DNA of 54,566 nt from a virus: positions 1-54,566 of IMG/VR virus record IMGVR_UViG_3300021368_000438, one strand, 5' to 3'. Each line of letters opens with the position of its first letter. Position 1 is the first letter of the stretch. The translations under genes were made by a program, and so were the position numbers. The notes beneath the pieces are model-generated. The model saw nothing but the letters and a program-made list of their open reading frames with translations. It made no database searches and had not been told where the DNA came from. This document shows positions 41,003 to 54,506 of the stretch, one piece after another.

Positions 41003-41032
41003 TTGACAGTCCTGTATCTGTAAGAGTACCCA
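41003..41032 (+). promoter_or_regulatory. promoter of the CobS/CobT operon
   Basis: TTGACA at 41003-41008 is a perfect -35 box. The best -10 at usual spacing is weak (TACCCA, 41027-41032, spacer 18). A weak -10 with an operator at the start site suits a controlled promoter. The layout matches the promoter at 47330. Confidence 0.5.
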
Positions 41033-41037
41033 CAGTG

Positions 41038-41055
41038 TGTATCCGAGGATATACA
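41038..41055 (+). promoter_or_regulatory. operator TGTAT-N8-ATACA (cobS promoter)
   Basis: Perfect inverted repeat TGTAT-CCGAGGAT-ATACA, extended to GTGTAT...ATACAC (41037-41056). It starts 35 bases after the first base of TTGACA, so it covers the likely transcription start, 25 bases before the cobS ATG. Confidence 0.65.
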
Positions 41056-41079
41056 CCCAACACCCAATAGGAGACAAAT

Positions 41080-43032
41080 ATGGATGTTGATAAACTACGA
41101 CTAGCACTAACCGAAGACACCTCAAGCGCAATGCGTAAGGCACTGCGTCCACTTGCTCAAGATGTCCTTGAGAGATGTCTTCATACAGACCAGATCGAGT
41201 TGGCGTTCAATGCCTCACCAATCGTTGGCGATGGCTCAGATCAGTTGAAGGTTTCACCTACGCACTCTGGTCTTGTGATGTCGCTCGACATGACGTCGCT
41301 TGCACACATTGCAAGCTCGTATGAGTATAGTAGAGAGAAAGCAGAATCCGTTTGCGATCACATGCTCGACGCTATCCGTAAGCCACAGAGGCACGGATAC
41401 ACAACAGCTTCGTCCAAGAGCAAGACAGGGTTTATATTCGGTCGCTATCGCGATTGGAACGATGACGTTCTTCCTCTGCTACAAAAAGCAGCCAGAGAAA
41501 AGACGGGCATCTTCTCTTCCGATGCCAAGCTACCGAAGTGGCCTGCGGAAACCGCCAACGAGAACTTGTGCATCCTGTGGATGATCGAAGAAGCAGTTGG
41601 CAAATTGCCAGTGAGCTACGGCCTTTTCAAGCATGCGATTACTTCCATGCACTCGATGAATGAGACGCAAAGTAACGTCTTTGAGGCAGCCTTCATCATC
41701 TTCGAAGACGAGAGCGTCGAGAATAACTGGCGTGAGATCATAGAGAATCTCCCTATTGAGCGCAGACAAAAGCTGAGAGATGTTCGTGATCGTATGGTGG
41801 ATCACTACAGTGACGCCGATGAAGAGCTGCCCACGGCAAAGCCTTCGGATGGTAGCATTGTCTTGCCAGAGGACACGACGATTGTTGACGCTGTGCTCTC
41901 GACCCAAGGCTTACCATCAATCAAGCGGATGGTTGATGCCATTAACACCGCCACAGCCAAGGTGACAAAGCTTGAGAGTGAGTTGGACATGACACGCAGA
42001 ATGGCGAGTCAGGCAGCCACAGCCGTGTCTACCGTTGCTACGACCGAGGCGACTGGCGACATACCCGAAGGCTCTGTCGAGACGGTGAACGCCGCTGATC
42101 TGTTCGGTATCACAGGAGCAGCCAGAGATATGTTCAACTTCGATGTGCCGAAGTGGAAGTGGAACGGTGTTCATCCCCACGTACCGCAAGTCGATCCCGA
42201 TTACATCTTTCGAGCAGAAGAACTGTTGCGTGTCTTGTTCGCCATCATGACGAACCAACGTGCGTACTTGTTCGGTCACTCTGGTACAGGCAAGACGACG
42301 CTCGTCGAGCAAGTCTGTGCGCTACTGCTGTGGCCGTGCATGAGGGTCAACTTCGACAGCGAGATTACTCGTATGGACTTGATCGGTCGTGACACACTGA
42401 ACGTGAAGGACGGTGCAAGCGTATCGACATTCATCGACGGCATCCTACCACAGGCAATGTCTGGGCCATATGTGTTGCTATGCGACGAGATGGACAGCGT
42501 CAGACCAGACGTCGCCTATGTGATGCAACGTGCTCTCGAAGGCAACGGCCTGTTGTTGACAGAGGATGGTGGTCGCCTTGTGAAACCGCATCCAATGTTC
42601 CGCATGTTTGCCACGGGTAACACCCAAGGCCAAGGTGATGAGCATGGTATGTACCCATCGTGTCGGCCTCAGTCTCTTGCGCTGCTCGACCGTTTCACTG
42701 TGTGGTCTGAAGTCGATTACCTTGATGCGAACCAACGCAGCAAGTTGGTCAAGAAGAAAGTCCCGACGCTCGACCCCGAACACCACAAGATGGTGTGCCA
42801 GTATGTGACCGAGCATCTGGCTGCGTTCAAGTCTGCCAAGATACTGCAACCGATGTCACCTCGTGGCATGATTGCACTGGCGCAAGCAGTCGCAATCTTC
42901 GCAAGCATTACGACAGGCAAGGAGACCGAGAAAGCAATCAAGCGTGGCTTCGGCACAGTGGTTCTTGATCGTGCCTCATCCTCAGACAAAGCGGTTATCT
43001 CAGGTATCGTAGATCGTGTGGTGGCATCATGA
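41080..43032 (+). CDS. cobS: CobS/MoxR-like AAA+ ATPase
   Basis: A 650-aa AAA+ protein. Walker A is GHSGTGKTT at 399-407; Walker B is LLCDEMD with Asp469/Glu470; sensor-like FATGNTQGQGD follows. The AAA+ part resembles CobS, the ATPase of aerobic cobaltochelatase (MoxR group), but the first 370 residues are an extra region not found in cellular CobS (about 330 aa). So it is probably a phage AAA+/VWA machine rather than a cobalamin enzyme. It overlaps the CobT-like gene by four bases (ATGA), as a matched pair. Its promoter has TTGACA and an operator. The partner is a VWA protein expected to be remodelled by this ring. Confidence 0.82.
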   Translation: MDVDKLRLALTEDTSSAMRKALRPLAQDVLERCLHTDQIELAFNASPIVGDGSDQLKVSPTHSGLVMSLDMTSLAHIASSYEYSREKAESVCDHMLDAIRKPQRHGYTTASSKSKTGFIFGRYRDWNDDVLPLLQKAAREKTGIFSSDAKLPKWPAETANENLCILWMIEEAVGKLPVSYGLFKHAITSMHSMNETQSNVFEAAFIIFEDESVENNWREIIENLPIERRQKLRDVRDRMVDHYSDADEELPTAKPSDGSIVLPEDTTIVDAVLSTQGLPSIKRMVDAINTATAKVTKLESELDMTRRMASQAATAVSTVATTEATGDIPEGSVETVNAADLFGITGAARDMFNFDVPKWKWNGVHPHVPQVDPDYIFRAEELLRVLFAIMTNQRAYLFGHSGTGKTTLVEQVCALLLWPCMRVNFDSEITRMDLIGRDTLNVKDGASVSTFIDGILPQAMSGPYVLLCDEMDSVRPDVAYVMQRALEGNGLLLTEDGGRLVKPHPMFRMFATGNTQGQGDEHGMYPSCRPQSLALLDRFTVWSEVDYLDANQRSKLVKKKVPTLDPEHHKMVCQYVTEHLAAFKSAKILQPMSPRGMIALAQAVAIFASITTGKETEKAIKRGFGTVVLDRASSSDKAVISGIVDRVVAS

Positions 43033-44948
43033 AGTCACAAACATTCGAACATGAGATGACGCAGACAAGTTCTGTGTTCGGTCGTAAGTCTAGCCTTAAC
43101 GTTGTGTTCAAGGGTGATGGTGCAGCAACGGATGGCGATAACGTTTATCTGCCGTCCATTGCACATGATCAGGAAGTGGACGCTGAGACACAGATGGTCA
43201 TGCGTGGCTACGTGGATCACGAAGCTGGTCACAACAGACACAGCGACATGCCGCTGATCTTGAAGAAGTATGAGCAGTGGCACGAAGAGAACAAGCCTGT
43301 ACTCAAGGGCTTGCACAATGCCATCGAAGACATGTGGCTGGAGAAACGGGTCATGCGTGAGTACGGTGGCTCGGAGAAGAACCTGTCTGCCGTTGCCAGT
43401 AAGTGTAACAACTCGTTCGTCGAGCAGAACAAAGACAATCCACTCACTCAGTCATGGGCAGCGGTCGGGCCGTTGGCTGTGACGTGGGAAGGTCGCCGCA
43501 ATTACGAGGGTATCGAGGGCGTTGACGAGTGTCTCGATCTCATACCAGACGACTTGCGTAAGCGTGTCGAAGAGTGGGTCTCTCGCATCGATGACTGCAA
43601 GAACACCGCAGACTGCATCGATCTGGCAACCGAAATCTACACCAATGAAATCGAGCCAACGATGAAGAAGTCGCCCAAGCCAGACAAGGAGGGCGACATC
43701 AGAAAACGTACAGTGCCAGGGGAGGACGGAGAAGAGACCCAAGACGAGAGCTTTGGTGAGGGTGATGATCCAGACACAACCGAGGGGCAGCCGACATCAG
43801 GCGACGAGGAGACTGATGAGGGCGACGGCGAAGGCACTACAGGTGGTGACACCGAGGGCGAGGAGCAAGAGGGCGAAGGTTCGTCTGAGGGCGGTACTCA
43901 GGAAGAGGTAGACGAGGTGACGCCTTGGACTACTGATCTCAAGGGTGGTCTCGATGAGGCGCTCAAGGCAGCAGGGCTGACCGAGCATGACGGCAAGAAG
44001 TACAGACCTTACACCACACAATACGACATGGTGCATCACCGCAAGTTGGATCAGAGCATACCAGCCAACAGGAAGCTGAACGAAGGCAGCACCTCTATCT
44101 ACAAGGCTGACCAACGGAAGCTTGGTGACACGGTGCTCGTGATGATGCGTAAGTTGTCTCGTGCATTCATGGCAAAGCAAGATCGATACTGGGAGGGCGG
44201 TCGTGAGTACGGTCGCTTGGACAGTCGCAGACTTGTCGCCGCTGTGAATGGTGCAGCCAATGTGTTCAAGACCAGAGACGAAGCGCAAGACATAGACACC
44301 GCAGTCATGATCATGGTGGACATGTCGGGCAGCATGGACAACGGTAGGATTATTGTTGCACGTCAGGTTGCGATTGCTCTTTGCAACTGCCTTGACCGCA
44401 CGACGATAGCCTACGAGTTGCTCGGCTTTAGTACGGACGAATACGCCATTAAGTATGAGGAGAAAAACGAGGCTTGTCATGGTAAGTTCAGCCGTATCTC
44501 TCCGCTGAGACATTACATCTTCAAGTCTTTCGAAGAACCGCTGCGTGATGCGACAGGTGCGATTGGCACAATGGCAAAGCACAGGATGCATCACAACGTG
44601 GATGGCGAGAGTGTGTTGTTTGGTCACGAGCGATTGAAGAAGCGGCCAGAGAGTAGACGCATCATGCTCGTGTTGTCTGACGGTTATCCAGAGTTTGATG
44701 GCAGTGGCGCTGAGCATCGTAAGTCTCACCTCGCTGACGTGGTTGCTCACGTACAGAAGGAAGGCACTGAGCTGATCGGCATCGGCATTCAGTCGAGTGC
44801 AGTCGAGCAATTCTATGATCGCTACACGGTGGTGAAAAATTTGAGTGATCTTTCGAAGGGTGCGCTTGACCAACTGGCGAGGCTGTTGATCGACGACAAG
44901 TTCGATGTAACGAGCGACAGCTTGATCAAGGCACGGAAACTTGGGTGA
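43029..44948 (+). CDS. cobT: CobT-like VWA protein with HExxH motif
   Basis: A 639-aa protein. The N-terminal domain has HEAGH at 64-68 (YVDHEAGHNRHSD), a zinc-peptidase-like motif also seen in CobT relatives. Residues about 210-305 are a highly acidic Glu/Gly/Thr linker. The C-terminal VWA domain has a MIDAS motif DMSGSMD at 431-437 and later VLSDGYPE. The gene is coupled to the AAA+ gene. In cells CobS and CobT load cobalt into hydrogenobyrinic acid; in phages such pairs are known but their role is unsettled. No other cobalamin gene is present here, so a protein-remodelling or peptidase role seems as likely. Confidence 0.82.
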   Translation: MKSQTFEHEMTQTSSVFGRKSSLNVVFKGDGAATDGDNVYLPSIAHDQEVDAETQMVMRGYVDHEAGHNRHSDMPLILKKYEQWHEENKPVLKGLHNAIEDMWLEKRVMREYGGSEKNLSAVASKCNNSFVEQNKDNPLTQSWAAVGPLAVTWEGRRNYEGIEGVDECLDLIPDDLRKRVEEWVSRIDDCKNTADCIDLATEIYTNEIEPTMKKSPKPDKEGDIRKRTVPGEDGEETQDESFGEGDDPDTTEGQPTSGDEETDEGDGEGTTGGDTEGEEQEGEGSSEGGTQEEVDEVTPWTTDLKGGLDEALKAAGLTEHDGKKYRPYTTQYDMVHHRKLDQSIPANRKLNEGSTSIYKADQRKLGDTVLVMMRKLSRAFMAKQDRYWEGGREYGRLDSRRLVAAVNGAANVFKTRDEAQDIDTAVMIMVDMSGSMDNGRIIVARQVAIALCNCLDRTTIAYELLGFSTDEYAIKYEEKNEACHGKFSRISPLRHYIFKSFEEPLRDATGAIGTMAKHRMHHNVDGESVLFGHERLKKRPESRRIMLVLSDGYPEFDGSGAEHRKSHLADVVAHVQKEGTELIGIGIQSSAVEQFYDRYTVVKNLSDLSKGALDQLARLLIDDKFDVTSDSLIKARKLG

Positions 44949-44970
44949 TCGCAAGAAATATACGGTGCGT

Positions 44971-45120
44971 ATGTCTTGGATGCGTTTGCATCCCAGACGT
45001 GCGTGGCAGATGCGCTTCTGGTTGCGCGTCGGCAAACAAGTCAAGGCCAAGGGTGTACCGCACAAGGACTTGGTCAAAGTCAAATCAATCATAAAGGAAG
45101 TAGAGCATGGGTATCGCTGA
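44971..45120 (+). CDS. possible small basic protein (49 aa)
   Basis: A 49-aa basic frame (MSWMRLHPRRAWQMRFWLRV, then GKQVKAKGVPHKDLVKVKSI) that fills the gap between CobT and the 99-aa gene and overlaps the latter's start. The ATG at 44971 has no clear Shine-Dalgarno. A TTG at 44941 in the same frame, preceded by AAGGCACGGAAAC, would give 59 aa. The composition looks protein-like, but evidence is limited. Confidence 0.4.
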   Translation: MSWMRLHPRRAWQMRFWLRVGKQVKAKGVPHKDLVKVKSIIKEVEHGYR

Positions 45121-45406
45121 GAAGATAAGTGTGCCGACACAGAAAGAAGAATGGTGGGCATGGCACAAGGAGAACCCTCACGTCTGGAGGTTGTTCGAGA
45201 AGTTCACATTCGAAGCCATAAAGGCAGGCCATGAGCAGCTTAGTGCATGGCTGATCGTTAATCAAATCAGGTGGGAGACCACCGTGAAGACGACGGGCGA
45301 GTTTAAAATCAAGAACGATTACATCGCATATTACGCTCGTCTGTTTATGGCAGTTCACCCTCAGTACGAGGGATTTTTCAAAACGAAGAGGATGAAAGAT
45401 GAGTAA
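45107..45406 (+). CDS. conserved-looking phage protein (99 aa)
   Basis: A 99-aa protein: WWAWHKENPHVWRLFEKFTF, then SAWLIVNQIRWETTVKTTGE and NDYIAYYARLFMAVHPQYEG. The HKENPHVWxLFEKFTxEAI and INxIRWET...NNYIAxYARLF patterns recur in small phage proteins from many sources, often near replication genes, from memory. AAAGGAAG precedes the ATG. It is followed by an overlapping 97-aa gene. The function is unknown, though the pattern looks like a compact helical fold. Confidence 0.72.
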   Translation: MGIAEKISVPTQKEEWWAWHKENPHVWRLFEKFTFEAIKAGHEQLSAWLIVNQIRWETTVKTTGEFKIKNDYIAYYARLFMAVHPQYEGFFKTKRMKDE

Positions 45407-45692
45407 TGCAGCAGACAAAATAGCCAAGCTACGCATGGCAGAGATGGGTGTTGGTTGGGAAGAAAAGCAACAGCCAGATGTGGGTGAGGTGCAGCCGATA
45501 GTGGATGCGCTCACGAAGAAAGACAACCTGACCGAAGAGTTGATCGGAAGCACGGCAGACGATGTGCGTGATGCCTTCGAGCAAGCAGCGATTGGGCGTG
45601 GCTTCAAGCTACGAAACACGTTCAGCTCGGACGACCTCAGACAGATGGTCGTCTGGCTGATGCGTATGCACTTCGTGAAGGGAGAAGAGTGA
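45399..45692 (+). CDS. hypothetical early protein (97 aa)
   Basis: A 97-aa mostly helical protein (KIAKLRMAEMGVGWEEKQQP, then LTEELIGSTADDVRDAFEQA). Its start overlaps the previous gene by 8 bases and its stop touches the kinase start (TGATG). No recognisable motif. Confidence 0.65.
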   Translation: MSNAADKIAKLRMAEMGVGWEEKQQPDVGEVQPIVDALTKKDNLTEELIGSTADDVRDAFEQAAIGRGFKLRNTFSSDDLRQMVVWLMRMHFVKGEE

Positions 45693-46192
45693 TGAATGAC
45701 AAAACTTTATACCTAATACGTGGGCTTACAGGAAGCGGTAAGACTACGTTGGCAGAGTTACTTGAGGAAGCTTACTCGAACGGAGACAGTGTAGCTGTTT
45801 TGGTGAGCGCAGACGATTACTTCATTAACATGCGCGGAGAATACAACTTCGATGCTAGTAGGCTCAAGAACGCACACGCCTACTGTCAAACGATGGTTCG
45901 TAGATACCTTAAACACGGGATCAAAGACGAAGAGTTTGGTGAGCCAATTAGTCTGACTGCGGTGATTGTTCACAACACATTCTCAACCAACTGGGAGATG
46001 CAATCCTACAAAGACATGGCGAAAGAGTTTGGTTGGTCGGTGTTTGTGATCGAGTGCCAGAATGATTTCGGTACGACGCATGACGTGCCAGACGAGGTGC
46101 GTGAGAGAATGTCGGAGAGATGGGAGAAGAATGACCAGACGTTCACGGACTGGATGGGTAAGCACATTCACAGGGAGCAAGCCAATGACTGA
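45692..46192 (+). CDS. P-loop kinase-like ATPase (N4BP2/PNK-like)
   Basis: A 166-aa P-loop protein. Walker A is GLTGSGKTTLAELL at about 9-22. It then has VSADDYFINMRGEYNFDASR, LKNAHAYCQTMVRRYLKHG and a short strand with IVHNTFSTNWEM, which is the arrangement of N4BP2-like or polynucleotide-kinase-like small kinases. The (S)xDDYF...Y.FD...L..AH..C signature is characteristic. It probably phosphorylates a nucleic-acid end or nucleotide. I chose the ATG at 45692 over the GTG at 45689 because it overlaps the stop as TGATG and has GGGAGAAG upstream. No phosphatase domain is attached. Confidence 0.78.
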   Translation: MNDKTLYLIRGLTGSGKTTLAELLEEAYSNGDSVAVLVSADDYFINMRGEYNFDASRLKNAHAYCQTMVRRYLKHGIKDEEFGEPISLTAVIVHNTFSTNWEMQSYKDMAKEFGWSVFVIECQNDFGTTHDVPDEVRERMSERWEKNDQTFTDWMGKHIHREQAND

Positions 46193-46424
46193 GACGTGTA
46201 ACGACTGCGGCGACAGTGTCGCATGGGGCAGCGGCAAGTTTGTGAACCGCTTGCCTGCTGACGACGGTTGGATTTGTGCCGAGTGCATGGACGGAGTTTA
46301 CGACTGTGACAGGTGTATGAAGCCAATCGGTTTTGATGAGGACATATGGCTGGCGAACAAGGAGCTACGCCTTTGTGAGGATTGTGCAACAGACGACGAG
46401 AAGGAGGAAGCAGAGGATGAATGA
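46185..46424 (+). CDS. small zinc-finger protein (79 aa)
   Basis: A 79-aa protein with four CxxC knuckles: CNDC, CAEC, CDRC and CEDC. The spacing suggests two zinc sites, LIM- or treble-clef-like. It is acidic at the end (DDEKEEAEDE). The ATG at 46185 (GGGAG upstream) overlaps the kinase end by 8 bases; the longer frame from 46062 is a shadow of the kinase gene. Probably a nucleic-acid or protein adaptor; the exact role is unknown. Confidence 0.72.
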   Translation: MTETCNDCGDSVAWGSGKFVNRLPADDGWICAECMDGVYDCDRCMKPIGFDEDIWLANKELRLCEDCATDDEKEEAEDE

Positions 46425-46752
46425 GCAATGGATACATGACTACCTAAAGGAGATGGCACGAAGAGGCGATCAATATGCTGAGAGACTAATGCAATCGATC
46501 ATAGACGACGACCGTAGCGGAGTTCAGACGAGCGTCTACCACCACGTTGACTTGTGCCGAGAGTTCAAAACTGACGTTCATAAAACCATCCCTCTCGTGA
46601 GTAAGAAATTCTACGACCAACTGATTGGAATCATGACGACGTTGGATGTGTCTCAATTCAAAAGCCAAAAAGATTACGCCGAAACGGTCGAGGAGATCGG
46701 TCGGGAAATGTGGGAGCGCATAATGGACGAGGAGTACTTTGAAAATGAATAA
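46417..46752 (+). CDS. hypothetical helical protein (111 aa)
   Basis: A 111-aa protein from the ATG at 46417 (AAGGAGG upstream; overlaps the previous stop). It is helical throughout (HDYLKEMARRGDQYAERLMQ, then SKKFYDQLIGIMTTLDVSQF) with an acidic end. The next gene starts in its last codons. No family recognised. Confidence 0.65.
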   Translation: MNEQWIHDYLKEMARRGDQYAERLMQSIIDDDRSGVQTSVYHHVDLCREFKTDVHKTIPLVSKKFYDQLIGIMTTLDVSQFKSQKDYAETVEEIGREMWERIMDEEYFENE

Positions 46753-46876
46753 ACTTACAAGCGCAAAGCTAGAAAAGATACTGGACGAAGCATTCGTCAA
46801 GGTAATGGGCAAGCCTCCCTTGAAAGGGGAGGCGCTCAAGAAATTTTTAATTCGTGTAAACAAGGAAGACAAATGA
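46745..46876 (+). CDS. small basic protein (43 aa)
   Basis: A 43-aa frame (MNKLTSAKLEKILDEAFVKV, then MGKPPLKGEALKKFLIRVNK) that overlaps the previous stop and the next start. Its composition is protein-like. A near-perfect hairpin GCCTCCCTT-GAA-AGGGGAGGC lies within it (46813-46833), with no T-run. Likely a real mini-gene in the operon. Confidence 0.6.
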   Translation: MNKLTSAKLEKILDEAFVKVMGKPPLKGEALKKFLIRVNKEDK

Positions 46877-47325
46877 TGGACGTATTCGAGAATAAGATTT
46901 GGACACTCTTCAACGCTCTTGAGAAGGAGCAGAAGCTGAGTATTGTGGAGAGACTATGCAGTTCACTTGTAGAGGAAGGCGTGAGGGAAGGATTGCCAAA
47001 GAAGAAAGCCAAGGGTAGCCACCGATGGAAGTCGGCGTACTGGATGAAGAGCCTTGAGAGCTATGACCCGAAGGGGAAAGGCACTGACTGTATCGTTGGG
47101 CATTACTTTCGTGACATAAAGGAACAGCTTGGGAAGGGTGAAGAGTTTGTGGTCGGGACGAGGGCGCAACCGAAATTTTACTTTTTGTGTGCCAGAAAAG
47201 ACGGCGAGACCGCAAGCGTGACCGATGGAAACAACAAGATACATGACATTGAGGACGCAGAAGTACTACATTTTGCCGAGAATTTTAAGGAGCTGCGCGA
47301 TATTTTGAAGGCTCGATCAAAATAG
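46873..47325 (+). CDS. hypothetical protein (150 aa)
   Basis: A 150-aa protein. It starts MMDVFENKIWTLFNALEKEQ and is basic in the middle (EGLPKKKAKGSHRWKSAYWM); the C-terminal half is alternating strands and helices (GEEFVVGTRAQPKFYFLCAR, ending FAENFKELRDILKARSK). The stop lies inside the first operator of the next promoter. It is the last gene of the CobS/CobT operon. No family is recognised. Confidence 0.65.
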   Translation: MMDVFENKIWTLFNALEKEQKLSIVERLCSSLVEEGVREGLPKKKAKGSHRWKSAYWMKSLESYDPKGKGTDCIVGHYFRDIKEQLGKGEEFVVGTRAQPKFYFLCARKDGETASVTDGNNKIHDIEDAEVLHFAENFKELRDILKARSK

Positions 47326-47346
47326 TGTATTGACAGGGATACACTA
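47323..47346 (+). promoter_or_regulatory. operator 1 of the integrase-side promoter (perfect 24-bp palindrome)
   Basis: TAGTGTAT-TGACAGGG-ATACACTA, perfect 8-bp arms around an 8-base spacer; its core is TGTAT-N8-ATACA. The -35 box TTGACA (47330-47335) is embedded in it, so a bound regulator should block RNA polymerase. Confidence 0.72.
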
Positions 47347-47358
47347 AACGCCTATCTC
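47330..47358 (+). promoter_or_regulatory. promoter of the lysogeny-side operon
   Basis: TTGACA (47330-47335), 17-base spacer, then TATCTC (47353-47358) as a weak -10. The transcript would start about 47365 and read the 96-aa, 63-aa, LuxR-type and integrase genes. Two operators flank it. Confidence 0.65.
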
Positions 47359-47363
47359 TAGGG

Positions 47364-47381
47364 TGTATTTAGATGAATACA
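47364..47381 (+). promoter_or_regulatory. operator 2 of the integrase-side promoter
   Basis: TGTAT-TTAGATGA-ATACA, perfect 5-bp arms with the same 8-base spacer as operator 1. The centres are 38 bp apart. It overlaps the predicted transcription start and ends 13 bases before the ATG at 47395. Confidence 0.68.
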
Positions 47382-47394
47382 GAGAGGAGGTAAA

Positions 47395-47685
47395 ATGGAT
47401 AACCGTACCCGTATTAAAACTGCTTATAATGAGTACAATGGCTGGCGCAAAGAAAATTTTCTTTGCTACATATCTTTTAAGTGGTGGACAAAAAAATACT
47501 GCTGCGGATCGACCGTAGGTGCTATTGCTACAGCTAAACTTTCAAAGTTTAGATTCAAATCTAGATGCAAAAAAACCAACTCGAAAATTGTCAATGACTT
47601 GGCGTCTGTGAGTTGGGCATCGCAATTCAAAATTCAGTACTGTCATACCGCCCCACCCAAAAGTTTAATTTGCTTACTGTTTTAA
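47395..47685 (+). CDS. hypothetical protein, first gene under the double operator (96 aa)
   Basis: A 96-aa basic protein (RIKTAYNEYNGWRKENFLCY, then ISFKWWTKKYCCGSTVGAIA). It has five Cys and a basic middle, ending in ICLLF. GAGAGGAGG precedes the ATG, one of the best ribosome binding sites here. It is the first product expected when the regulator leaves its operators. Its second half is low in charge and atypical, so the protein may be short-lived or decayed. No family recognised. Confidence 0.55.
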   Translation: MDNRTRIKTAYNEYNGWRKENFLCYISFKWWTKKYCCGSTVGAIATAKLSKFRFKSRCKKTNSKIVNDLASVSWASQFKIQYCHTAPPKSLICLLF

Positions 47686-47701
47686 ACTTTATGAGGACAC
47701 A

Positions 47702-47893
47702 ATGACAGAACGAGAACGAAAACTCCCTATCGGTGAACGATCATGCGGATGCATGAGTACACCGTCTACAAATTTTTCAGAACGTAAAGGAGATTCGCGT
47801 CTTGGGTTGACCATAGGTTCTCGTGACGCAAACGTAATGAACAATTTGTTATACGGAGAACAAAATTATGACGAGTCAGTTAGATCGCATTGA
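47702..47893 (+). CDS. hypothetical protein (63 aa)
   Basis: A 63-aa protein (RERKLPIGERSCGCMSTPST, then NFSERKGDSRLGLTIGSRDA) with a GAGGA site before its ATG. It overlaps the start of the LuxR-type gene. It contains one CGC pair. No function recognised. Confidence 0.5.
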   Translation: MTERERKLPIGERSCGCMSTPSTNFSERKGDSRLGLTIGSRDANVMNNLLYGEQNYDESVRSH

Positions 47894-48311
47894 AGCGAAA
47901 CTTGACCATATTTTAATGCAACTTAATACACAGACGACAACACCGATGCCGAACAAAATAGCGTTAATTGAAGAAGCTCTTTCAAATGATGCTGGACACC
48001 TGTTCCAAAACTGGACGGTCAAACAGCATTGTGTTTTGCAAATGATACTGAGGGGCGCAAGCAATGAAGACATTGCCAAGCGGATGAAGGTCACGGTGAA
48101 CACAGCCAAGGTGCATGTGCGTACATTGTTTAGGAAGCTAGACGTGAACACACGCGCCGAGTGTGTGAGTAAGTGTTTGATTGCATTTCGGGAAGTGAGT
48201 GACGATCAGTATATGTTGATGACGAGAGGTCTGCCCAAGGATTGGGACGAAACATACTCTGAGCCTGACCCTCACGATTTATTAATTCACGGAGCAACTA
48301 ATGCCGCTTAA
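47868..48311 (+). CDS. LuxR/GerE-type HTH regulator
   Basis: A 147-aa regulator with a C-terminal-type HTH at about 49-105: WTVKQHCVLQMILRGASNED, then IAKRMKVTVNTAKVHVRTLF and RKLDVNTRAE. This is the classic LuxR/GerE pattern (ANEDIA.....V..HV..L..KL). There is no receiver or autoinducer domain; the N-terminus is a short coiled coil. The gene overlaps the integrase start by 11 bases. It may control integrase and the lysis-lysogeny choice. A good ribosome binding site (GGAGAAC) precedes the ATG. Confidence 0.85.
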   Translation: MTSQLDRIEAKLDHILMQLNTQTTTPMPNKIALIEEALSNDAGHLFQNWTVKQHCVLQMILRGASNEDIAKRMKVTVNTAKVHVRTLFRKLDVNTRAECVSKCLIAFREVSDDQYMLMTRGLPKDWDETYSEPDPHDLLIHGATNAA

Positions 48312-49590
48312 ACTAAAACTACGGAATGGTGTGTGGCAAGCCGTTGGGACTGTTGTCTGTAAGGACGGTCGCAAGGTGTTTGTGCGTAAGAGCACAGGCC
48401 ACACGTTCCACGAGAAGACGTGGGCAACTAAGAAGTTGTCTGACATTCTCTTGGAGACCGTGCAAAGTGAAGCAAAACGGGAAGATACCACCACCAAGGT
48501 GGTGTCTGACTGCATCCGTCTGTTCTTGAAAAGGCCAGATGGTGTGGGGAAGACTGATGAGATGACGCTTGATCGGTTTGAACGTGTGTTCGGACGTAAG
48601 GAATTGAGCAAGTTGACCAGTCTTGAGGTGAATGATTACCTGACAGGAAAGGGAAACAAAGCCAGTAGTGTGCGTCGGGAGATGTCAACAATCTCTGCGT
48701 GTTTCGGATACGCACGACGCATGGGGATGGATGTGCCAGACATTACGTTGGTCAAGCCAAGTGAAGGAGACGGACGATGTCGATGGTTGGATGTAGATCA
48801 GCGTGACCAGTTGATCGATGCCATGCCAGACGTGAACAGTCGTGACGTGCTGAAGTTCTTGTTCTTTACTGGGGCGAGGTTGGGGGAGTGCTTTAACTTG
48901 AGACGAGAAGATGTCTTGAGTGGTGAGGTGTTGCTGCGAACTCGCAAAGGTAAGGCCAAGAAGTTGAGGACAAGGCGTGTGCCGCTTCATGCTGAGATCA
49001 AAGCGATGGTTGAGGCGAGGGCGGTAGCTACGAACAATTTCGTCTTCAAGTACAACAAGCGTAATACGCGCAGAGGTTCGTCTTCCTACAGTTTGGAGCG
49101 TTGGGAGCGTGATGGTTTCTATGACTACTTCAACGTTGCCAAGGACAAGATTGGGCTAGACGATTTTGTTCCGCATGATTGTCGGCACACGTTTGCCTCG
49201 CATTTGGTGCAAGCTGGCGCAAGCTTGAAGGCGGTGGCTGAGTTGTTGGGACATACAAGTCTGGCGATGGTCATGCGTTACGCGCATCTTGCGCCTTCAC
49301 ACTTGGATGACACCGTAAGTTTGTTGGGTGTCAAAGAGGTGTCTGATTGCACAAATACTACACACGAAGAAGGGGTGGTGCTGCCTGAGAGAATTGAACT
49401 CTCGGCCTCTTCCTTACCAAGGAAGCGCTCTACCACTGAGCTAAGGCAGCTTAATCAAACAATAATTTCAGACGGCATTGATTCTCCGAATGCTAATATA
49501 GACGTAAGCAACGCCGTTGACAGTGAAAAATGCGATGCCCTTACCAAGGGTAAAAGCACACACCCAAAGAGCTATAAGCCAGATAAGTAG
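48301..49590 (+). CDS. int: tyrosine integrase, C-terminus encoded through tRNA-Thr
   Basis: A 429-aa tyrosine recombinase for site-specific integration. The catalytic set is Arg193 (GARLGECFNL), a Lys near 217-221, His292/Arg295 (PHDCRHTFASHL), His318 (LGHTSL) and the nucleophile Tyr327 (MRYAHL). The N-terminal arm- and core-binding domains are intact. The last residues are unusual: 359-384 (VVLPERIELSASSLPRKRST) are read antisense through a complete tRNA-Thr, followed by about 45 residues of no clear fold. Such ends arise when attP lies inside the int 3' end. It shares an operon with the LuxR-type gene. Confidence 0.95.
   Translation: MPLKLKLRNGVWQAVGTVVCKDGRKVFVRKSTGHTFHEKTWATKKLSDILLETVQSEAKREDTTTKVVSDCIRLFLKRPDGVGKTDEMTLDRFERVFGRKELSKLTSLEVNDYLTGKGNKASSVRREMSTISACFGYARRMGMDVPDITLVKPSEGDGRCRWLDVDQRDQLIDAMPDVNSRDVLKFLFFTGARLGECFNLRREDVLSGEVLLRTRKGKAKKLRTRRVPLHAEIKAMVEARAVATNNFVFKYNKRNTRRGSSSYSLERWERDGFYDYFNVAKDKIGLDDFVPHDCRHTFASHLVQAGASLKAVAELLGHTSLAMVMRYAHLAPSHLDDTVSLLGVKEVSDCTNTTHEEGVVLPERIELSASSLPRKRSTTELRQLNQTIISDGIDSPNANIDVSNAVDSEKCDALTKGKSTHPKSYKPDK
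49376..49450 (-). tRNA. tRNA-Thr(GGT), overlaps integrase 3' end, probable attP core
   Basis: A 75-base cloverleaf on the minus strand. The acceptor stem GCTGCCT pairs with AGGCAGC. The D arm is GCTC-AGTGGTA-GAGC, the anticodon arm is CTTCC-TTGGTAA-GGAAG with anticodon GGT (Thr), the variable region is AGGCC and the T arm is GAGAG-TTCAATT-CTCTC, followed by ACCA with encoded CCA. All stems are perfect, so it may be functional. It lies antisense inside the integrase reading frame, so the phage probably integrates into the host tRNA-Thr gene and carries a full copy of it. Confidence 0.93.
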
Positions 49591-49718
49591 TAAGTATTTG
49601 AAGCCTTTAGGGTTATTGTCAAGTATGGCAACTGACAACTTGAGGTGCATGAAATCGTGTGTAATTGCACACTACACTACCGAATGCAGGCATATGGATA
49701 TATACAGTCATAGACAAT

Positions 49719-49764
49719 AATAAACTTGATAACACACGAAAGGTGTGCAAGATATAAGTTTATT
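49719..49764 (+). repeat. nested inverted repeat near attP
   Basis: Outer arms AATAAACTT (49719-49727) and AAGTTTATT (49756-49764), inner arms CACAC and GTGTG (49733-49747) around GAAAG. It lies in the 207-base gene-free gap 49591-49797. The gap also has GTGTG-TAATTG-CACAC at 49657-49672. Candidate integrase arm sites, regulator sites or a structured RNA. Confidence 0.5.
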
Positions 49765-49797
49765 CTGCATGACATTTGTCAACAGGGAAACAAGATT

Positions 49798-49962
49798 ATG
49801 AATACACTCGAAGAATTTTACGAGCAGATCGAGTCAACGATTACTGAAAATTTCGATAAGCAAAGCGAAGACATACAAAACAAATCATCGGATGCAGTAG
49901 TAGAGTTATTAACGATAATAGATAAGCAGCGCAGTAAGGCGAGAGGGAATTTACATGACTGA
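49798..49962 (+). CDS. small acidic protein (54 aa)
   Basis: A 54-aa acidic helical protein (MNTLEEFYEQIESTITENFD, then KQSEDIQNKSSDAVVELLTI). AGGGAAACAAG precedes the ATG at 49798; the longer frame from 49726 enters the inverted repeat. It overlaps the next gene by 8 bases. No family recognised. Confidence 0.6.
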   Translation: MNTLEEFYEQIESTITENFDKQSEDIQNKSSDAVVELLTIIDKQRSKARGNLHD

Positions 49963-50257
49963 AAAAAAAGAGGCAGAGAAGCCGCAAGCTGTTGAAGTGG
50001 GTAAGTTATTCGCCATTTTGCAAGCTGGAAACTTAATGAATGTTGAGATTGAGTTTAACGGAAACTTAACGGGGGCAGACACTGCCGCTACTGTTTTGTC
50101 TCGTCTGAGTTATTCTCTGCACGACGTTCAGTGGTCAACAAGAAATGTCATGAGGGTTGCAAATAGAGATGCACAGACTAAAGCCGATGGAAATAAAGAC
50201 GGGGATACTGATGATTCGTCTGCTGAGCCAGAACCCACAGGAGATGACGCAGCGTAG
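49955..50257 (+). CDS. hypothetical protein (100 aa)
   Basis: A 100-aa protein. The core (VGKLFAILQAGNLMNVEIEF, then TVLSRLSYSLHDVQWSTRNV) looks folded and the tail is highly acidic and disordered (GNKDGDTDDSSAEPEPTGDD). GAGAGGG precedes the ATG. The winged-helix gene starts inside its tail. No known family. Confidence 0.6.
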   Translation: MTEKKEAEKPQAVEVGKLFAILQAGNLMNVEIEFNGNLTGADTAATVLSRLSYSLHDVQWSTRNVMRVANRDAQTKADGNKDGDTDDSSAEPEPTGDDAA

Positions 50258-50414
50258 ACTTTCGGATGACTTGGGTGTCAGTCAATCTTGTGTTAGCGAA
50301 TACATCCGAAAACTAAAACATGTAGGCGTGGTCGGGAAAGACGGAAGTAAGTGGATACTCGGACGTAACTACAGAAAATATTTAAAACATTGGGGCATAG
50401 AAGAGCAGGGTTAA
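50211..50414 (+). CDS. winged-helix DNA-binding protein (67 aa)
   Basis: A 67-aa protein: MIRLLSQNPQEMTQRRLSDD, LGVSQSCVSEYIRKLKHVGV, then VGKDGSKWILGRNYRKYLKH. It is a compact winged helix-turn-helix of MarR/LexA style: recognition helix SQSCVSEYIRKL, wing VVGKDGSKW. The start at 50211 has ACGGGG upstream; the longer frame from 50157 overlaps the previous gene more. It ends at a terminator. Probably a small regulator of phage genes. Confidence 0.68.
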   Translation: MIRLLSQNPQEMTQRRLSDDLGVSQSCVSEYIRKLKHVGVVGKDGSKWILGRNYRKYLKHWGIEEQG

Positions 50415-50431
50415 TCACCCTGCTTTTTTTT
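50404..50431 (+). terminator. terminator shared by convergent genes
   Basis: AGCAGGG-TTAATCA-CCCTGCT, a perfect 7-bp stem with a T8 run on the plus strand. The stops of the plus-strand winged-helix gene (TAA at 50412) and of the minus-strand 39-aa gene (TAA at 50413) both lie in its loop. Confidence 0.9.
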
Positions 50432-50530
50432 CGCCATTCTCTTTGCGATCTTTCCGTCTCTCGTCATGATGACAAGCTTGCCGTTGTCGTCGTAGACAAT
50501 GTACTTGTTGTTACGTTGAATGAGTAACAC
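50411..50530 (-). CDS. small protein (39 aa, GTG start)
   Basis: A 39-aa frame (start LLIQRNNKYIVYDDNGKLV, then IMTRDGKIAKRMAKKKQGD). Two short strands with Asp/Asn-Gly turns and a Lys-rich tail look like a real mini-protein. The GTG at 50530 is 2 bases after the previous TGA, with AGGGG 8 bases upstream. Its stop lies in the shared terminator hairpin. The function is unknown. Confidence 0.6.
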   Translation of the reverse strand: MLLIQRNNKYIVYDDNGKLVIMTRDGKIAKRMAKKKQGD

Positions 50531-50531
50531 A

Positions 50532-51014
50532 TCACCAACGCCCCTGATGCTGTCCCCAAAGATAGAAGAAGAGGAAGAGTAGGCCACCGCTGACAGCGAA
50601 TATAATACTGCCGATTATGAAGTTGATTATGGCGTCCATCTGTTGCTGCTTCTTGTACAACTCGTCTGATCGTCGCTTGCGTATCATTGCCTCAGTGGCG
50701 ACCAGTTCATTCCATCCGCTTCTGCCGTAATGCCAAGTGATCAGTTCGCGGAGTTCCTCCCTCATGGCTTCCATCTTTTTCTTCTGGGCAAAAATTTCTA
50801 ACGCCGTCTCCTCGTCTGATCCCTTAAAAGTTTTCTTCCACCAGGGAGGGTTCGTCACCTCGCGCTTCTCAATGTTAGAGAAGTCGCTGATTGCTTTGCC
50901 CCATTGCCCCAGTTGTGACGCGCAATCGGTGAGATCGCGGCCTGCCGAGACGGTTGCCTTGATCGCCTTAAATGCACCTGTCGCCAAACCAACACAAGAA
51001 ATTGGGTCAATCAT
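50532..51014 (-). CDS. C-terminally membrane-anchored phage protein (160 aa)
   Basis: A 160-aa protein: start MIDPISCVGLATGAFKAIKA (Ala/Gly-rich, VSAGRDL), a basic helical middle (EREELRELITWHYGRSGWNE-type: REELRELITWHYGRSGWNEL), then a C-terminal membrane segment (INFIIGSIIFAVSGGLLFLF). The DPIS(C/A)xGLAT...AGRD...(R/K)xELR...GxxAWNEL pattern is one I recall from marine cyanophage and pelagic phage proteins of unknown role. GAGG precedes the ATG. A tail-anchored inner-membrane protein could mediate exclusion or membrane replication. That is inference. Confidence 0.68.
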   Translation of the reverse strand: MIDPISCVGLATGAFKAIKATVSAGRDLTDCASQLGQWGKAISDFSNIEKREVTNPPWWKKTFKGSDEETALEIFAQKKKMEAMREELRELITWHYGRSGWNELVATEAMIRKRRSDELYKKQQQMDAIINFIIGSIIFAVSGGLLFLFFYLWGQHQGRW

Positions 51015-51032
51015 TTCTACCTCGTCTGATCG

Positions 51033-51353
51033 TCACCCGTCAGGGTGTAAGATCATCTCCTCATCCTCTAACGTTTCTAGGATGAACCGCTGCTTTAGAA
51101 GTTCGATCCCTGCGATTGTTGCGTGAACGTCGTCGTGACAGCCAGAAGTAGTGAACGAGCCAGTAGAGTTGCCTGATGATGATAGGTAACAGACAGCGAA
51201 AGACTTTATGTCGCCGTCTCTTGCAGACTTGAGTAAGTTCTCAGCCGCTTGAATAACTTCTTCTTTATCGTACACATCAGTACCTATTATCCGAGCTGCA
51301 ACTTTGTCATCAGGGTTTTCATTTATCTGCACTATCCGTAGGTTTGCTGTCAT
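51033..51353 (-). CDS. hypothetical protein (106 aa)
   Basis: A 106-aa protein from the ATG at 51353 (GGAGG upstream), starting inside the end of the nuclease gene. It has MTANLRIVQINENPDDKVAA, then VIQAAENLLKSARDGDIKSF and YLSSSGNSTGSFTTSGCHDD. The layout (helix with ARDGxIxSxAVCYL) recalls a family of small phage and bacterial proteins of unknown function. No catalytic motif is evident. Confidence 0.62.
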   Translation of the reverse strand: MTANLRIVQINENPDDKVAARIIGTDVYDKEEVIQAAENLLKSARDGDIKSFAVCYLSSSGNSTGSFTTSGCHDDVHATIAGIELLKQRFILETLEDEEMILHPDG

Positions 51354-51738
51354 CTGGTTCGTCCTCCTCGACGTATCCTTCACACCTTAGATAATAGCGA
51401 TAGAAGAATAGGAGGTCGTCCAGTCTGAGCAGACATAATGACTGACCAGTAGGCATTCTGTTCTTACGGTTAATGACGATAGGGATGTCTGGGCTTTTTG
51501 TCTTGTCGATGTTTTTTTCTGCTTGGCGCATTGCGTCGTGGAAGTTCAGACGTTCGACACGCTTGGCTTCGATGAACAGGTTGGGTACGCCCATTAGGTC
51601 AGCGCCGCCAGACAATACTCCAATCGCGCCGCCGCCAGATAGCGGCGCACGTAACGCAGTGGTAAGGCCAGTAAGGGAGTTGATGTACGCAGCGAGTTCG
51701 CGTTCGTAGTTGTCGCCTTTAGTTTTTTGCTTACTCAT
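51319..51738 (-). CDS. PD-(D/E)xK nuclease, Holliday-junction-resolvase-like
   Basis: A 139-aa protein. KGDNYERELAAYINSLTGLT matches the N-terminal Glu helix of Holliday-junction-resolvase-like nucleases. It is followed by RAPLSGGGAIGVLSGGADLM and LFIEAKRVERLNFHDAMRQA, giving the D...ExK catalytic set (ADLMG, then IEAK). The C-terminal part is acidic. It lies beside the primase-helicase, consistent with a role in replication or recombination. The ATG at 51738 has GAGAGG upstream and overlaps the previous stop by 8 bases; the longer frame to 51897 would overlap the HTH gene. Confidence 0.75.
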   Translation of the reverse strand: MSKQKTKGDNYERELAAYINSLTGLTTALRAPLSGGGAIGVLSGGADLMGVPNLFIEAKRVERLNFHDAMRQAEKNIDKTKSPDIPIVINRKNRMPTGQSLCLLRLDDLLFFYRYYLRCEGYVEEDEPDDSKPTDSADK

Positions 51739-52024
51739 CTGAGTAGCCTCTCGCCTTACGGCAAGACGTGCAATAAAACCACATGCGAGGACGGCTTTCG
51801 TCTGAGCCACAATCAAGACACGGGCGTTGCCAAAAAGTAACGTTAGATTTTCGTCTGACTTGATACTTAGCGCCGTCGAAATCCTGTAGTCCTTCACGTA
51901 CCAGTATGCGCTTTAGTGTATCGACGCAGCATCCGAGACGTTTAGCCATAGCTGGATAGGTCTCGTCTTCGTGAACGTCACGAAGCCAAGCTATATCGTC
52001 TTCGCTTAGTTTGATGCGGCTCAT
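51731..52024 (-). CDS. HTH plus zinc-finger protein, probable leaderless start (97 aa)
   Basis: A 97-aa protein. The N-terminus is an HTH-like helix set (KLSEDDIAWLRDVHEDETYP, then AMAKRLGCCVDTLKRILVRE). The C-terminus has four Cys as CLDC...CTSC around SRPRMWFY, probably one zinc site. The ATG at 52024 lies 6 bases after the -10 box and has no Shine-Dalgarno, so the mRNA may begin with AUG. The other ATG at 52033 would lie within the -10. It probably regulates or recruits the replication block. WxRPC...C(G)...RP...YC..C is a recalled phage motif. Confidence 0.68.
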   Translation of the reverse strand: MSRIKLSEDDIAWLRDVHEDETYPAMAKRLGCCVDTLKRILVREGLQDFDGAKYQVRRKSNVTFWQRPCLDCGSDESRPRMWFYCTSCRKARGYSDE

Positions 52025-52030
52025 AATTTT

Positions 52031-52059
52031 CATTTAAGCAGCCATCAAAAAGGTGTCAA
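52031..52059 (-). promoter_or_regulatory. minus-strand promoter of the HTH/zinc and nuclease block
   Basis: TTGACA (52059-52054), 17-base spacer, TAAATG (52036-52031) on the minus strand, a near-consensus promoter. The predicted start (about 52024) coincides with an ATG. A diverging plus-strand promoter starts 17 bases away. Confidence 0.72.
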
Positions 52060-52075
52060 CAATAAACTTTAGGTG

Positions 52076-52104
52076 TTGACTTATCGGTCACGAACCAGTA
52101 CAAC
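52076..52104 (+). promoter_or_regulatory. plus-strand divergent promoter
   Basis: TTGACT (52076-52081), 17-base spacer, TACAAC (52099-52104). It would transcribe the hairpin at 52128 and the possible ORF at 52200. It is back to back with the minus-strand promoter at 52059. Confidence 0.5.
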
Positions 52105-52127
52105 GCAAGAGCGTTTGAGCGATTGAT

Positions 52128-52154
52128 GTTGTTTCGGCAAGAGCCGAAAACAAC
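52128..52154 (+). ncRNA. strong hairpin in leader, possible small RNA
   Basis: GTTGTTTCGGC-AAGA-GCCGAAAACAAC makes an 11-bp stem with a single bulged A and a four-base loop. There is no T-run. With the promoter upstream and a terminator-like hairpin at 52287, a small RNA or a regulated leader is possible. Evidence is structural only. Confidence 0.3.
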
Positions 52155-52199
52155 AGAGAGAACGAAAACACTTAAGCGATTATTAGGCGTTGTACTGTT

Positions 52200-52346
52200 T
52201 TGAATACCGCAGAAGAAAACAGAAAAAAATATCCAAAAATTGCAGAATGGGTTGACGAAGTTCGGGTGTATTTTCCGAAAGCGAAAGTGAAGGCTATTCG
52301 CCTTCACGCTAATCCAACTCAAGCCACTCCCGAAGCTGACGATTAG
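52200..52346 (+). CDS. possible small plus-strand protein (48 aa, TTG start)
   Basis: A frame from TTG (52200) to TAG at 52346 reads NTAEENRKKYPKIAEWVDEV, then RVYFPKAKVKAIRLHANPTQ. The (I)AEWVDEVRxxFPxAKVxxI pattern looks like a real phage mini-protein. It starts after a plausible promoter, but the TTG has only a weak AGG 12 bases upstream. Its end overlaps the convergent primase-helicase by 38 bases. Confidence 0.45.
   Translation: MNTAEENRKKYPKIAEWVDEVRVYFPKAKVKAIRLHANPTQATPEADD
52287..52307 (-). terminator. terminator-like hairpin after the primase-helicase
   Basis: GTGAAGGC-GAATA-GCCTTCAC, a perfect 8-bp stem on the minus strand directly after the TAG at 52309, followed by TTTCGCTTTC. 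The U-tract is weak. It would end the primase-helicase transcript. Confidence 0.55.
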
Positions 52347-54219
52347 GTCGCTGTAGTATTCGACTGATCTCTTCTATGTCTTTTCCTTCGAGCGCCATAC
52401 TCTTGGCTCTCTGCTTTGTAGACTGTGAGCTGACCACGCAACGCTCGTCTGTTCGATTGTTCTGAGCGAAGCCAATCCATTGCACACGATCATGTGCTTC
52501 TGACCACTCTCGCACCTTGCCATAGCGCACTTCCATCACCATATATAAAGAGAAGTCTGGTGCTAACTTTGCACTCAAAGAAGGCCAGACGGGACGCTCG
52601 TAACTATCGTCGTGGATCGCAGCATTTTGACGTGCAGTATCCTCGTCTTGATAAACTTGCGTGACCCTTATCTGAGTTTCCAAAACAGTTAACTGATTGG
52701 TGCTACCAGCTTCACGACCAACCCCACTATCACTTGGCTTGTTTGAGTGGTGAACAAGGATCACAGCGTAGCCTGCATTACGCAAACGCACGGCAAGTTG
52801 GTTCACCTTTGCCCACTCGTCTGCCGAGTTTTCCATTAAGCCTGGGTAAGCTGTTCGAAGTGTATCGACGACGACGACGTCTGGCTTAACTGAATCAACC
52901 CATCCCTGTAACTCGACCAGACCTTCCTTCGTGCGGAGGTTCATTTCATGGTTGTCTACGAACGGCGTCCAGATTTGTAGCCTATCGTGAGCATCACCAT
53001 GTACCTGACGCATCTCAAGCAGACGACGTGCTATTGTAGACATGCCCATCTCGAAGTCGAGGTAGAGAACCTTGGATGGTTTCATGATCTCAAACGGCCC
53101 GAAATATTTCTTGCCTGCCGCCAGTGCAGCCATTGCGTTCTGTACGAACATCGACTTACCGTGACCAGAGTAACCGTAGACTTGAGTGATTGATGCTGGA
53201 GGCAGCCAAGGTTCGATAAGGTATTGTCTTGCCGAGCTTTTTTCTATCATCTCTTCTGCGTCAGACATCATGATTAGCTTCCGAGCACGGCCTTCCCCGT
53301 TCAGTTCTCGCTGCTCTTCCTCGATTTTTTTCTTGTGAATATACTCGCCGTCGTCTGAGAATCTTTCTGGATGATTACGCTTTTCGCTCTGCTCCATGCT
53401 TCGACAGGTTGCCTCAAACTCAGCCTCTGGAAGCTGCTCTTCGAAGAACTCATTCATGAAAGCGTAGCCACGAACACGCAACTCTGGGCCGAAATTTCCT
53501 TCCATAATTTGTTCGCTGATGTACTTCATCACGCGCTCGTTACGTCCGTTCCCAACACCAGTAGGTATCTTTAATGTGTTCGGATATGTCTCTCGCACGT
53601 ACTTAGCTGTGCGATCCCATTCACTAATAAACTCGTCAGGGTTACGTGCAACCACGTCACTTAAATCGAGATCAGAAAACGAGAACCCTTCGCCTTCAGA
53701 CTTAATCTTTGGCGACCAGTCTTGCCAGACAGGGAACTCATCGGGATCAAGATCGAACCCCTGTGGAATGTCCCAACTGTAGTTGTTTGATGGAGGGCAG
53801 AGAGCGTATGATCCATCCCCCCGAAAGTCTAGTCCGTTTATGCGAGGCCAGTCTGCACCACGGCTGTTTACGCCTGCCCTTGGGCCACGACGAACACCGT
53901 CTTTTGGATGCTGAAAGTACAGGTGATGACCGCGTTTTGTCTTGACTCTAAACGTGCTCTTCATGCCAGCGTCGAACGCTGCGTGAAGGGCTTCCTCATT
54001 ATCACAATCGACGACAACCACGCCCGACAAAGTGCCAGTGATTAACGCAATCGGATCGTCTGGGAAATCTGACCACCACTGCTCCACTTCCTCATAGGTC
54101 GGCAGGGTGTCCTGATACTGTTTCCATTTTATTCTTGGTCGCTTGGTGTCGGGCTTGCATGGTATGATTGACCACCCAAGATCAAGCAGTTCAAGAGCTG
54201 CCTCCATGTTTGTCTTCAT
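52309..54219 (-). CDS. primase-helicase (prim-pol plus RepA/DnaB-like helicase)
   Basis: A 636-aa two-domain replication enzyme. Residues about 5-170 are a bifunctional primase-polymerase (AEP) domain: WSIIPCKPDTKRPRIKWKQY, the catalytic DxD in VVVVDCDNEEA (Asp71/Asp73) and GHHLYF (His98/99). The C-terminal part is a RecA-like helicase: Walker A GYSGHGKSMF with Lys355, Walker B DVVVVDTLRTAYP with Asp452, then VILVHHSNKPSD. It would prime and unwind DNA for phage replication. I chose the ATG at 54219 with GAGGAGACAATCA before it. It overlaps the Cro-like gene by 29 bases, so the two are coupled. Confidence 0.88.
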   Translation of the reverse strand: MKTNMEAALELLDLGWSIIPCKPDTKRPRIKWKQYQDTLPTYEEVEQWWSDFPDDPIALITGTLSGVVVVDCDNEEALHAAFDAGMKSTFRVKTKRGHHLYFQHPKDGVRRGPRAGVNSRGADWPRINGLDFRGDGSYALCPPSNNYSWDIPQGFDLDPDEFPVWQDWSPKIKSEGEGFSFSDLDLSDVVARNPDEFISEWDRTAKYVRETYPNTLKIPTGVGNGRNERVMKYISEQIMEGNFGPELRVRGYAFMNEFFEEQLPEAEFEATCRSMEQSEKRNHPERFSDDGEYIHKKKIEEEQRELNGEGRARKLIMMSDAEEMIEKSSARQYLIEPWLPPASITQVYGYSGHGKSMFVQNAMAALAAGKKYFGPFEIMKPSKVLYLDFEMGMSTIARRLLEMRQVHGDAHDRLQIWTPFVDNHEMNLRTKEGLVELQGWVDSVKPDVVVVDTLRTAYPGLMENSADEWAKVNQLAVRLRNAGYAVILVHHSNKPSDSGVGREAGSTNQLTVLETQIRVTQVYQDEDTARQNAAIHDDSYERPVWPSLSAKLAPDFSLYMVMEVRYGKVREWSEAHDRVQWIGFAQNNRTDERCVVSSQSTKQRAKSMALEGKDIEEISRILQRPNRQLREWLELD

Positions 54220-54412
54220 TGATTGTCTCCTCAAAATATTGGTCTAGCTCGATCTCTGGATGAGCTGTTTTAATTTTCTCTAGTACAGTTGTGCGAATAT
54301 GACCTCTTCGTATCCACGCATATGGCGCTGTCCTCACCACGCCCACTGCATTCGCAACTGCGGCTGCTCCACCCAAATCATGAACCAGCCGACTGATATT
54401 TAAGTTCTTCAT
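54191..54412 (-). CDS. Cro-like HTH regulator (73 aa)
   Basis: A 73-aa regulator: NISRLVHDLGGAAAVANAVG, then VVRTAPYAWIRRGHIRTTVL and EKIKTAHPEIELDQYF. The GGAAAVAxAxG...TxxxAWxRRGxI pattern is that of small Cro/YdaS-type phage repressors, with the recognition helix TAPYAWIRRG. It overlaps the start of the primase-helicase. An operator of the TGTAT-N8-ATACA series lies 20 bases upstream, over its promoter, so it is the best candidate for the regulator that reads that site. Confidence 0.78.
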   Translation of the reverse strand: MKNLNISRLVHDLGGAAAVANAVGVVRTAPYAWIRRGHIRTTVLEKIKTAHPEIELDQYFEETINEDKHGGSS

Positions 54413-54431
54413 ATTTTTTTCCTTGCAATGG

Positions 54432-54449
54432 TGTACCTTCTAGGATACA
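54432..54449 (-). promoter_or_regulatory. operator TGTAC-N8-ATACA upstream of the Cro-like gene
   Basis: Plus-strand reading TGTAC-CTTCTAGG-ATACA, one base off the perfect palindrome, same 8-base spacer. On the minus strand it covers the -35/-10 interval and the -10 of the promoter at 54464, so binding would repress the Cro-like gene itself. Confidence 0.6.
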
Positions 54450-54464
54450 TACAAAAGGTGTCAA
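54437..54464 (-). promoter_or_regulatory. promoter of the Cro-like and primase-helicase operon
   Basis: TTGACA (54464-54459 on the minus strand), 16-base spacer, then TAGAAG (54442-54437). The start would be about 54430, 18 bases before the ATG at 54412. It overlaps the operator at 54432-54449. Confidence 0.55.
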
Positions 54465-54506
54465 CTGTAGTCAATGTGTTTGTCTACAAGGAATGAAGGA
54501 GACAAT

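Follow-up and report, generated by a model that had tools for sequence, protein, structure and literature searches.

The window (the whole stretch of 54,566 bases of viral DNA analysed here) is a temperate marine phage of the type of CRP-810, the type phage of a temperate marine family, which integrates at tRNA-Thr and carries CobS/CobT (mSphere 2024; PMC11288001). Its gene order agrees with that of CRP-810 (CobS/CobT, luxR-int, HJR, primase, Cro-like), with the primase and TerL being 68% and 78% identical, respectively, and a complete tRNA-Thr(GGT) is located at the 3' end of the integrase gene, which is the predicted attachment region. The genes concerned are as follows.

41080–43032, plus strand: CobS-like AAA+ ATPase
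43029–44948, plus strand: CobT-like VWA protein
47868–48311, plus strand: GerE-only (LuxR-type HTH) protein, a putatively regulated gene missing from some site-bearing relatives
48301–49590, plus strand: tyrosine integrase
49376–49450, minus strand: complete tRNA-Thr(GGT), overlapping the 3' end of the integrase ORF
50211–50415, plus strand: winged-helix/HTH protein of 67 aa, an alternative or second candidate binder
51319–51735, minus strand: Holliday-junction-resolvase-like nuclease (HJR)
51731–52033, minus strand: HTH/zinc-ribbon-like protein of 100 aa, first gene of the HJR operon, present in all relatives covering the locus
52309–54234, minus strand: primase-polymerase/helicase, second gene of the Cro-like operon
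54191–54412, minus strand: Cro/YdaS-like HTH protein of 73 aa with the invariant helix RTAPY(A/G)W, the best candidate binder

Upstream of the HTH/HJR operon lies a long stem-loop (52060–52215, minus strand), in which 11-bp arms (CAGTACAACGC and GCGTTGTACTG) enclose an inner hairpin. It has a folding z-score of -4.45 and is largely kept in the relative G002 (about 77% identical); Rfam matches in 47000–54566 comprise the tRNA only, with none for the stem-loop.

The palindrome TGTAT-N8-ATACA occurs exactly three times in the window (41038–41055, 47326–47343 and 47364–47381), confirming the perfect copies of the original prediction except that the first base is 41038 instead of 41037, whereas 0.06 copies are expected and none of 100 dinucleotide shuffles reached three. 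When one mismatch is allowed, there are five matches against 1.56 expected, the additional ones being 54432–54449 and 23300–23317. The latter, inside a 396-aa gene (22603–23793) of the structural region, is background. The former, predicted as a fourth copy, is weak taken alone, because five of 100 shuffles also reach five matches, and it is accepted as real because it is conserved in relatives. The core TGTA-N10-TACA is found exactly at the four sites 41038, 47326, 47364 and 54432 (shuffle mean 0.6, maximum 3), all of them intergenic, although only 3.4% of the 18-mers of the window are; the pattern is thus not equally common within genes or in shuffled sequence. These four sites also rank 1–4 in the window with a weight matrix built from relatives, for which the two closest ones and the window itself were left out. 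Coding and intergenic assignments here and below follow the annotation of CRP-810 and manual gene calls of the window only; greedy ORF masking of the relatives labelled some operators as coding by mistake. The sites and two degenerate candidates are listed below.

41038–41055: putative operator before cobS, TGTATCCGAGGATATACA, 24 bp upstream of the cobS start
47326–47343: putative operator O1 of the luxR-int operon, TGTATTGACAGGGATACA, containing TTGACA at 47330–47335, register kept in G002
47364–47381: putative operator O2 of the luxR-int operon, TGTATTTAGATGAATACA, covering the likely transcription start
54432–54449: putative operator for the Cro-like and primase genes, TGTATCCTAGAAGGTACA as read on the minus strand, 19 bp upstream of where the Cro-like gene begins
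52191–52208: weak candidate for a degenerate operator upstream of the HTH/HJR operon, TGTACTGTTTTGAATACC (matrix rank 10, alone not above chance)
41013–41030: weak candidate for a second, degenerate site ahead of cobS, TGTATCTGTAAGAGTACC (matrix rank 25, alone not above chance)

The two weak sites, of which 52191–52208 overlaps an arm of the conserved stem-loop, may individually be chance matches. The predicted location of the sites on promoters is made plausible by TTGACA hexamers, though not by a consensus promoter scan of the window, which gave no signal above chance, so that the transcription starts are putative. The hexamer at 41003–41008 precedes the cobS operator by about 30 bp, another one lies inside O1, and a third on the minus strand (54464–54459) places the expected -10 box within the Cro-promoter site. 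These positions fit repression.

As the original prediction had proposed to check, conserved sites are found at the same promoters across the phage family. The cultured phage CRP-810 (57.7 kb) contains seven TGTA-N10-TACA sites (shuffle mean 0.53, maximum 3), located before cobS (1708), luxR-int (7737), the post-integrase gene gp15 (9570 and 9590), the HTH/HJR operon (14360 and 14546) and the Cro-like/primase operon (16972). All seven are intergenic as compared with 7% of its 18-mers (p about 8e-9 if the sites are independent). Over 13 genomes, TGTA-N10-TACA has 37 matches at the spacing of 10 against 2–14 at other spacings, and TGTAT-N8-ATACA has 17 against at most 3, while the everted control is flat over the 13 members. 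The same list of promoters is seen in many members. Sites precede cobS in G011 (1338), G010 (275) and G022 (45055) as in CRP-810, and with one mismatch in G025, G033 and G017, while clear sites are present at the HTH/HJR promoter of CRP-810, G015, G025, G017 and G005. Among the distinct Cro-like promoters of the RTAPY group, 33 of 33 carry the site with no more than two mismatches (26 of 33 with no more than one), at 18–47 bp upstream of the start codon.

In G002, the DNA upstream of luxR-int is hardly alignable apart from the paired sites, of which the arms and the 38-bp register are kept; the O2 counterpart (TGTATTCGTAGGGATACA) lies 38 bp from O1 as in the window but differs in its spacer bases. 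The Cro promoter of G002 likewise has conserved arms and flanks and a changed centre. A scan of viral contigs with the paired operators returned 26 stretches, of which only the G002 contig was recognised as a relative. Scans of viral contigs with the primase and Cro proteins did recover relatives, whereas a scan with the CobT protein found none. TGTA-N10-TACA also occurs 82–111 bp before a gene of 396–397 aa, the length of the major capsid protein, in G008/G009 (e.g. G009:31368) and G011 (G011:43591), and no such site precedes a gene of this length in the window or CRP-810.

The spacer, regarded in the original prediction as unrelated sequence, does differ between sites but shows a weak, symmetric and clade-specific preference, with the family half-site consensus TGTAT-[A/C]-[A/G]-[T/C]-A (TGTAT-M-R-Y-A). 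The inner bases TGTATAG are found in 5 of 10 half-sites where residue 26 of the Cro-like protein is Q (2 of 54 otherwise), and TGTATCC in 4 of 12 half-sites where residue 32 is A (1 of 52 otherwise). This tracking of the helix class supports the Cro-like protein as the binder, but is confounded by descent. The covariation is not strict, as L171 and the A29Q variants (L223–L225 and L242) also vary in the outer arm. In these four A29Q loci, the Cro-like protein reads RTQPYAW instead of RTAPYAW, and the right arm of the Cro-promoter site is altered (TGACA).

The Cro-like protein is present in 100% of the site-bearing genomes checked, a site lies immediately in front of its gene in every case, and its recognition segment RTAPY-x-W is invariant in the aligned members, as are the TGTA arms. 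Its AlphaFold model (mean pLDDT 84) comprises five helices and two short edge strands, a small, predominantly helical HTH fold like that of N15/P22 Cro, and the top Foldseek matches are N15 Cro and Xfaso 1 Cro (probability 0.99–1.00, with weak E values of 0.06–0.13). The sequence of the window protein stays below the Pfam cut-offs (19.3 against 30 bits for YdaS_toxin; 14.7 against 30.2 for P22_Cro), a weak YdaS_toxin match being obtained for 12 of 12 members scanned, and a PDB sequence search with the Cro profile gave no meaningful match. G029 (L046) contains the primase, HTH and HJR genes without a Cro-like gene, and no TGTA-N10-TACA site is found at its primase and HTH promoters, a case from one lineage and a contig fragment. 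These two promoters of G029 bear GGTGTGACACC instead.

In a prophage of Poseidonocella sp. HB161398, the Cro-like protein reads RTAPYRW and the surroundings of the primase lack TGTA-N10-TACA. The 8.1-Mb genome holds three perfect copies of ACACCT-NN-AGGTGT, only on the CRP-810-type prophage contig (L142 9686; G035 C233 4613, 49165 and 57986), one of them located at the Cro promoter, one immediately preceding the CobS ORF and one in front of an operon at the prophage end. The layout of the regulon is thus kept with a different palindrome. The candidate operator sequence in this prophage, the counterpart to TGTAT-N8-ATACA, is ACACCTTTAGGTGT. No second prophage was found in nearly 800 further genomes of the Poseidonocella family and order. 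At the Cro promoters of G022, L040, L209, L204, L177 and others, a palindrome of the ACACCT-NN-AGGTGT type also lies immediately upstream of the TGTA-N10-TACA site and overlaps it. These neighbouring palindromes may belong to a second regulator or represent an evolving operator. A reading as one and the same operator arranged differently was considered as well, but the opposite orientation of the half-sites is a misfit for one rigid dimer.

The sites are probably operators of one dimeric phage repressor, for which the 73-aa Cro/YdaS-like protein is the most likely candidate as judged from sequence and its conservation. In a Cro-like dimer, each of the two recognition helices would contact one TGTA half-site of the 18-bp palindrome. 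Since the site in front of its own gene sits at the expected -10 box, the protein would keep down its own production as well as that of the primase-helicase by autorepression. The luxR-int promoter would take up two dimers, at O1 over the -35 hexamer and at O2 over the transcription start, whereas a single dimer would be placed directly downstream of the core promoter of cobS. The Cro-like protein would in this way jointly repress replication, integration/LuxR and CobS/CobT; in relatives, the recombination operon and the post-integrase genes would be added to these. The sites, their position between genes, their retention at orthologous promoters and their survival in LuxR-less relatives are observed, while the identity of the binder, its binding as a dimer, repression over activation and a role in the choice between lysis and lysogeny are inferred.

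The 67-aa winged-helix/HTH protein might instead share these operators antagonistically with the Cro-like protein, as CI and Cro do in lambda, one protein being lysogenic and the other lytic. Such an arrangement is conceivable though rather doubtful. The winged-helix protein is present in nearly all members (in CRP-810 it is missed by tblastn and found by a profile search), the post-integrase operon has its own sites in CRP-810, G002 and G022, and overlapping operators of PaaR2 and YdaS are known from CP-933P (PMC8630535). A separate CI-type repressor was also not found, nine genomes giving no HTH_3 match over the cut-off. On the other hand, no good site precedes the winged-helix operon in the window, and no link is seen between the helix of this protein and the motif. 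As both the winged-helix and the HTH/zinc proteins are family-wide, the argument from absence fails for them, and one of them may act as a second binder after the model of CI and Cro.

That argument does apply to the LuxR-type protein, which the original prediction had named beside the Cro-like and winged-helix proteins. GerE proteins bind inverted repeats about as long as the 18-bp sites, and the luxR-int operon is preceded by two sites in both the window and G002. However, G025, G033 and G017 have no GerE domain and yet retain sites at cobS, int, HJR and cro, so the sites do not occur only alongside a GerE protein and LuxR is not required. LuxR as the sole or necessary binder is thus largely refuted, and it is improbable that this protein acts on the operons through these sites at all. 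Among the proposed binders, the Cro-like protein is favoured, and the winged-helix protein is neither supported nor dismissed. A host regulator coupling the phage to host physiology is equally improbable: the sequence data leave the binder unnamed, but the sites track phage operons in a family reported from different marine bacterial hosts (PMC11288001), their inner bases correlate with the Cro helix class, and the divergent prophage bears another palindrome on the same kind of promoter, unique to its contig within 8.1 Mb of host DNA. It is even harder to credit that the sites are chance likenesses or AT-rich promoter sequence (-10 boxes) devoid of operator function. Several sites of relatives do overlap TATAAT-like sequence and the one-mismatch count in the window is merely marginal, but the spacing specificity, the two-sided symmetry and the 38-bp register amid diverged DNA refute a chance origin of the whole site set.

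The finding is therefore real and its reading right in outline, namely a family-wide phage regulon with dispersed operators, of which the Cro-like protein is most likely the regulator. That relatives throughout the family carry these sites at matching promoters strongly supports the original proposal that operators of a dimeric regulator tie together replication, integration and CobS/CobT. The inclusion of CobS/CobT in a replication/integration regulon suggests that the pair takes part in the phage cycle and does not serve the vitamin B12 metabolism of the host alone. For a marine phage family of global distribution, this gives a testable control circuit with a named 73-aa protein, not LuxR, as its likely master regulator, for which a cultured phage-host pair (CRP-810 and CHUG strain FZCC0198) is at hand. 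More tentatively, one small Cro-like protein at dispersed operators of the replication, integration, recombination and CobS/CobT operons might control lysis-lysogeny in these temperate phages without a CI-type repressor, with the Poseidonocella lineage having swapped the operator at corresponding promoters along with a change in the recognition helix.

In the description of CRP-810, LuxR was proposed as the switch, and no operators, promoters or repressor were described (PMC11288001). The clustered OR/OL of the lambda type around one immunity region is not seen in the window, where the sites are spread over about 13 kb, and a lambda-type CI gene divergent from cro was not found in the nine genomes searched for HTH_3; the divergent gene in CRP-810 is gp25, annotated as hypothetical. 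YdaS, the Cro analogue of the CP-933P/Rac prophages, protects promoter DNA containing 18-bp palindromes (PMC8630535) and resembles the present protein in having replication genes nearby in the same direction, but its half-site (GTTTAGTAA) differs from the TGTA half-site, and no YdaT or PaaR2-like partner is seen here. The 16-bp operators of N15 and phiKO2 have a T-A-(N)10-T-A core in common (PMC4997575), which is also contained in TGTA-N10-TACA of the window, and structurally the fold predicted for the Cro-like protein is closest to Cro of this N15/phiKO2/PY54 group. N15-type operators likewise overlie promoters, with one set preceding a replication gene. However, OR3 is the only operator bound by phiKO2 Cro, the window family yielded no CI/CB gene, and N15-type operators comprise one immunity region plus OL, whereas the sites of the window are dispersed over several operons including those of the integrase and CobS/CobT. 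The kind of system is known, while the circuit and its inclusion of CobS/CobT, undescribed in the literature searched, are new.
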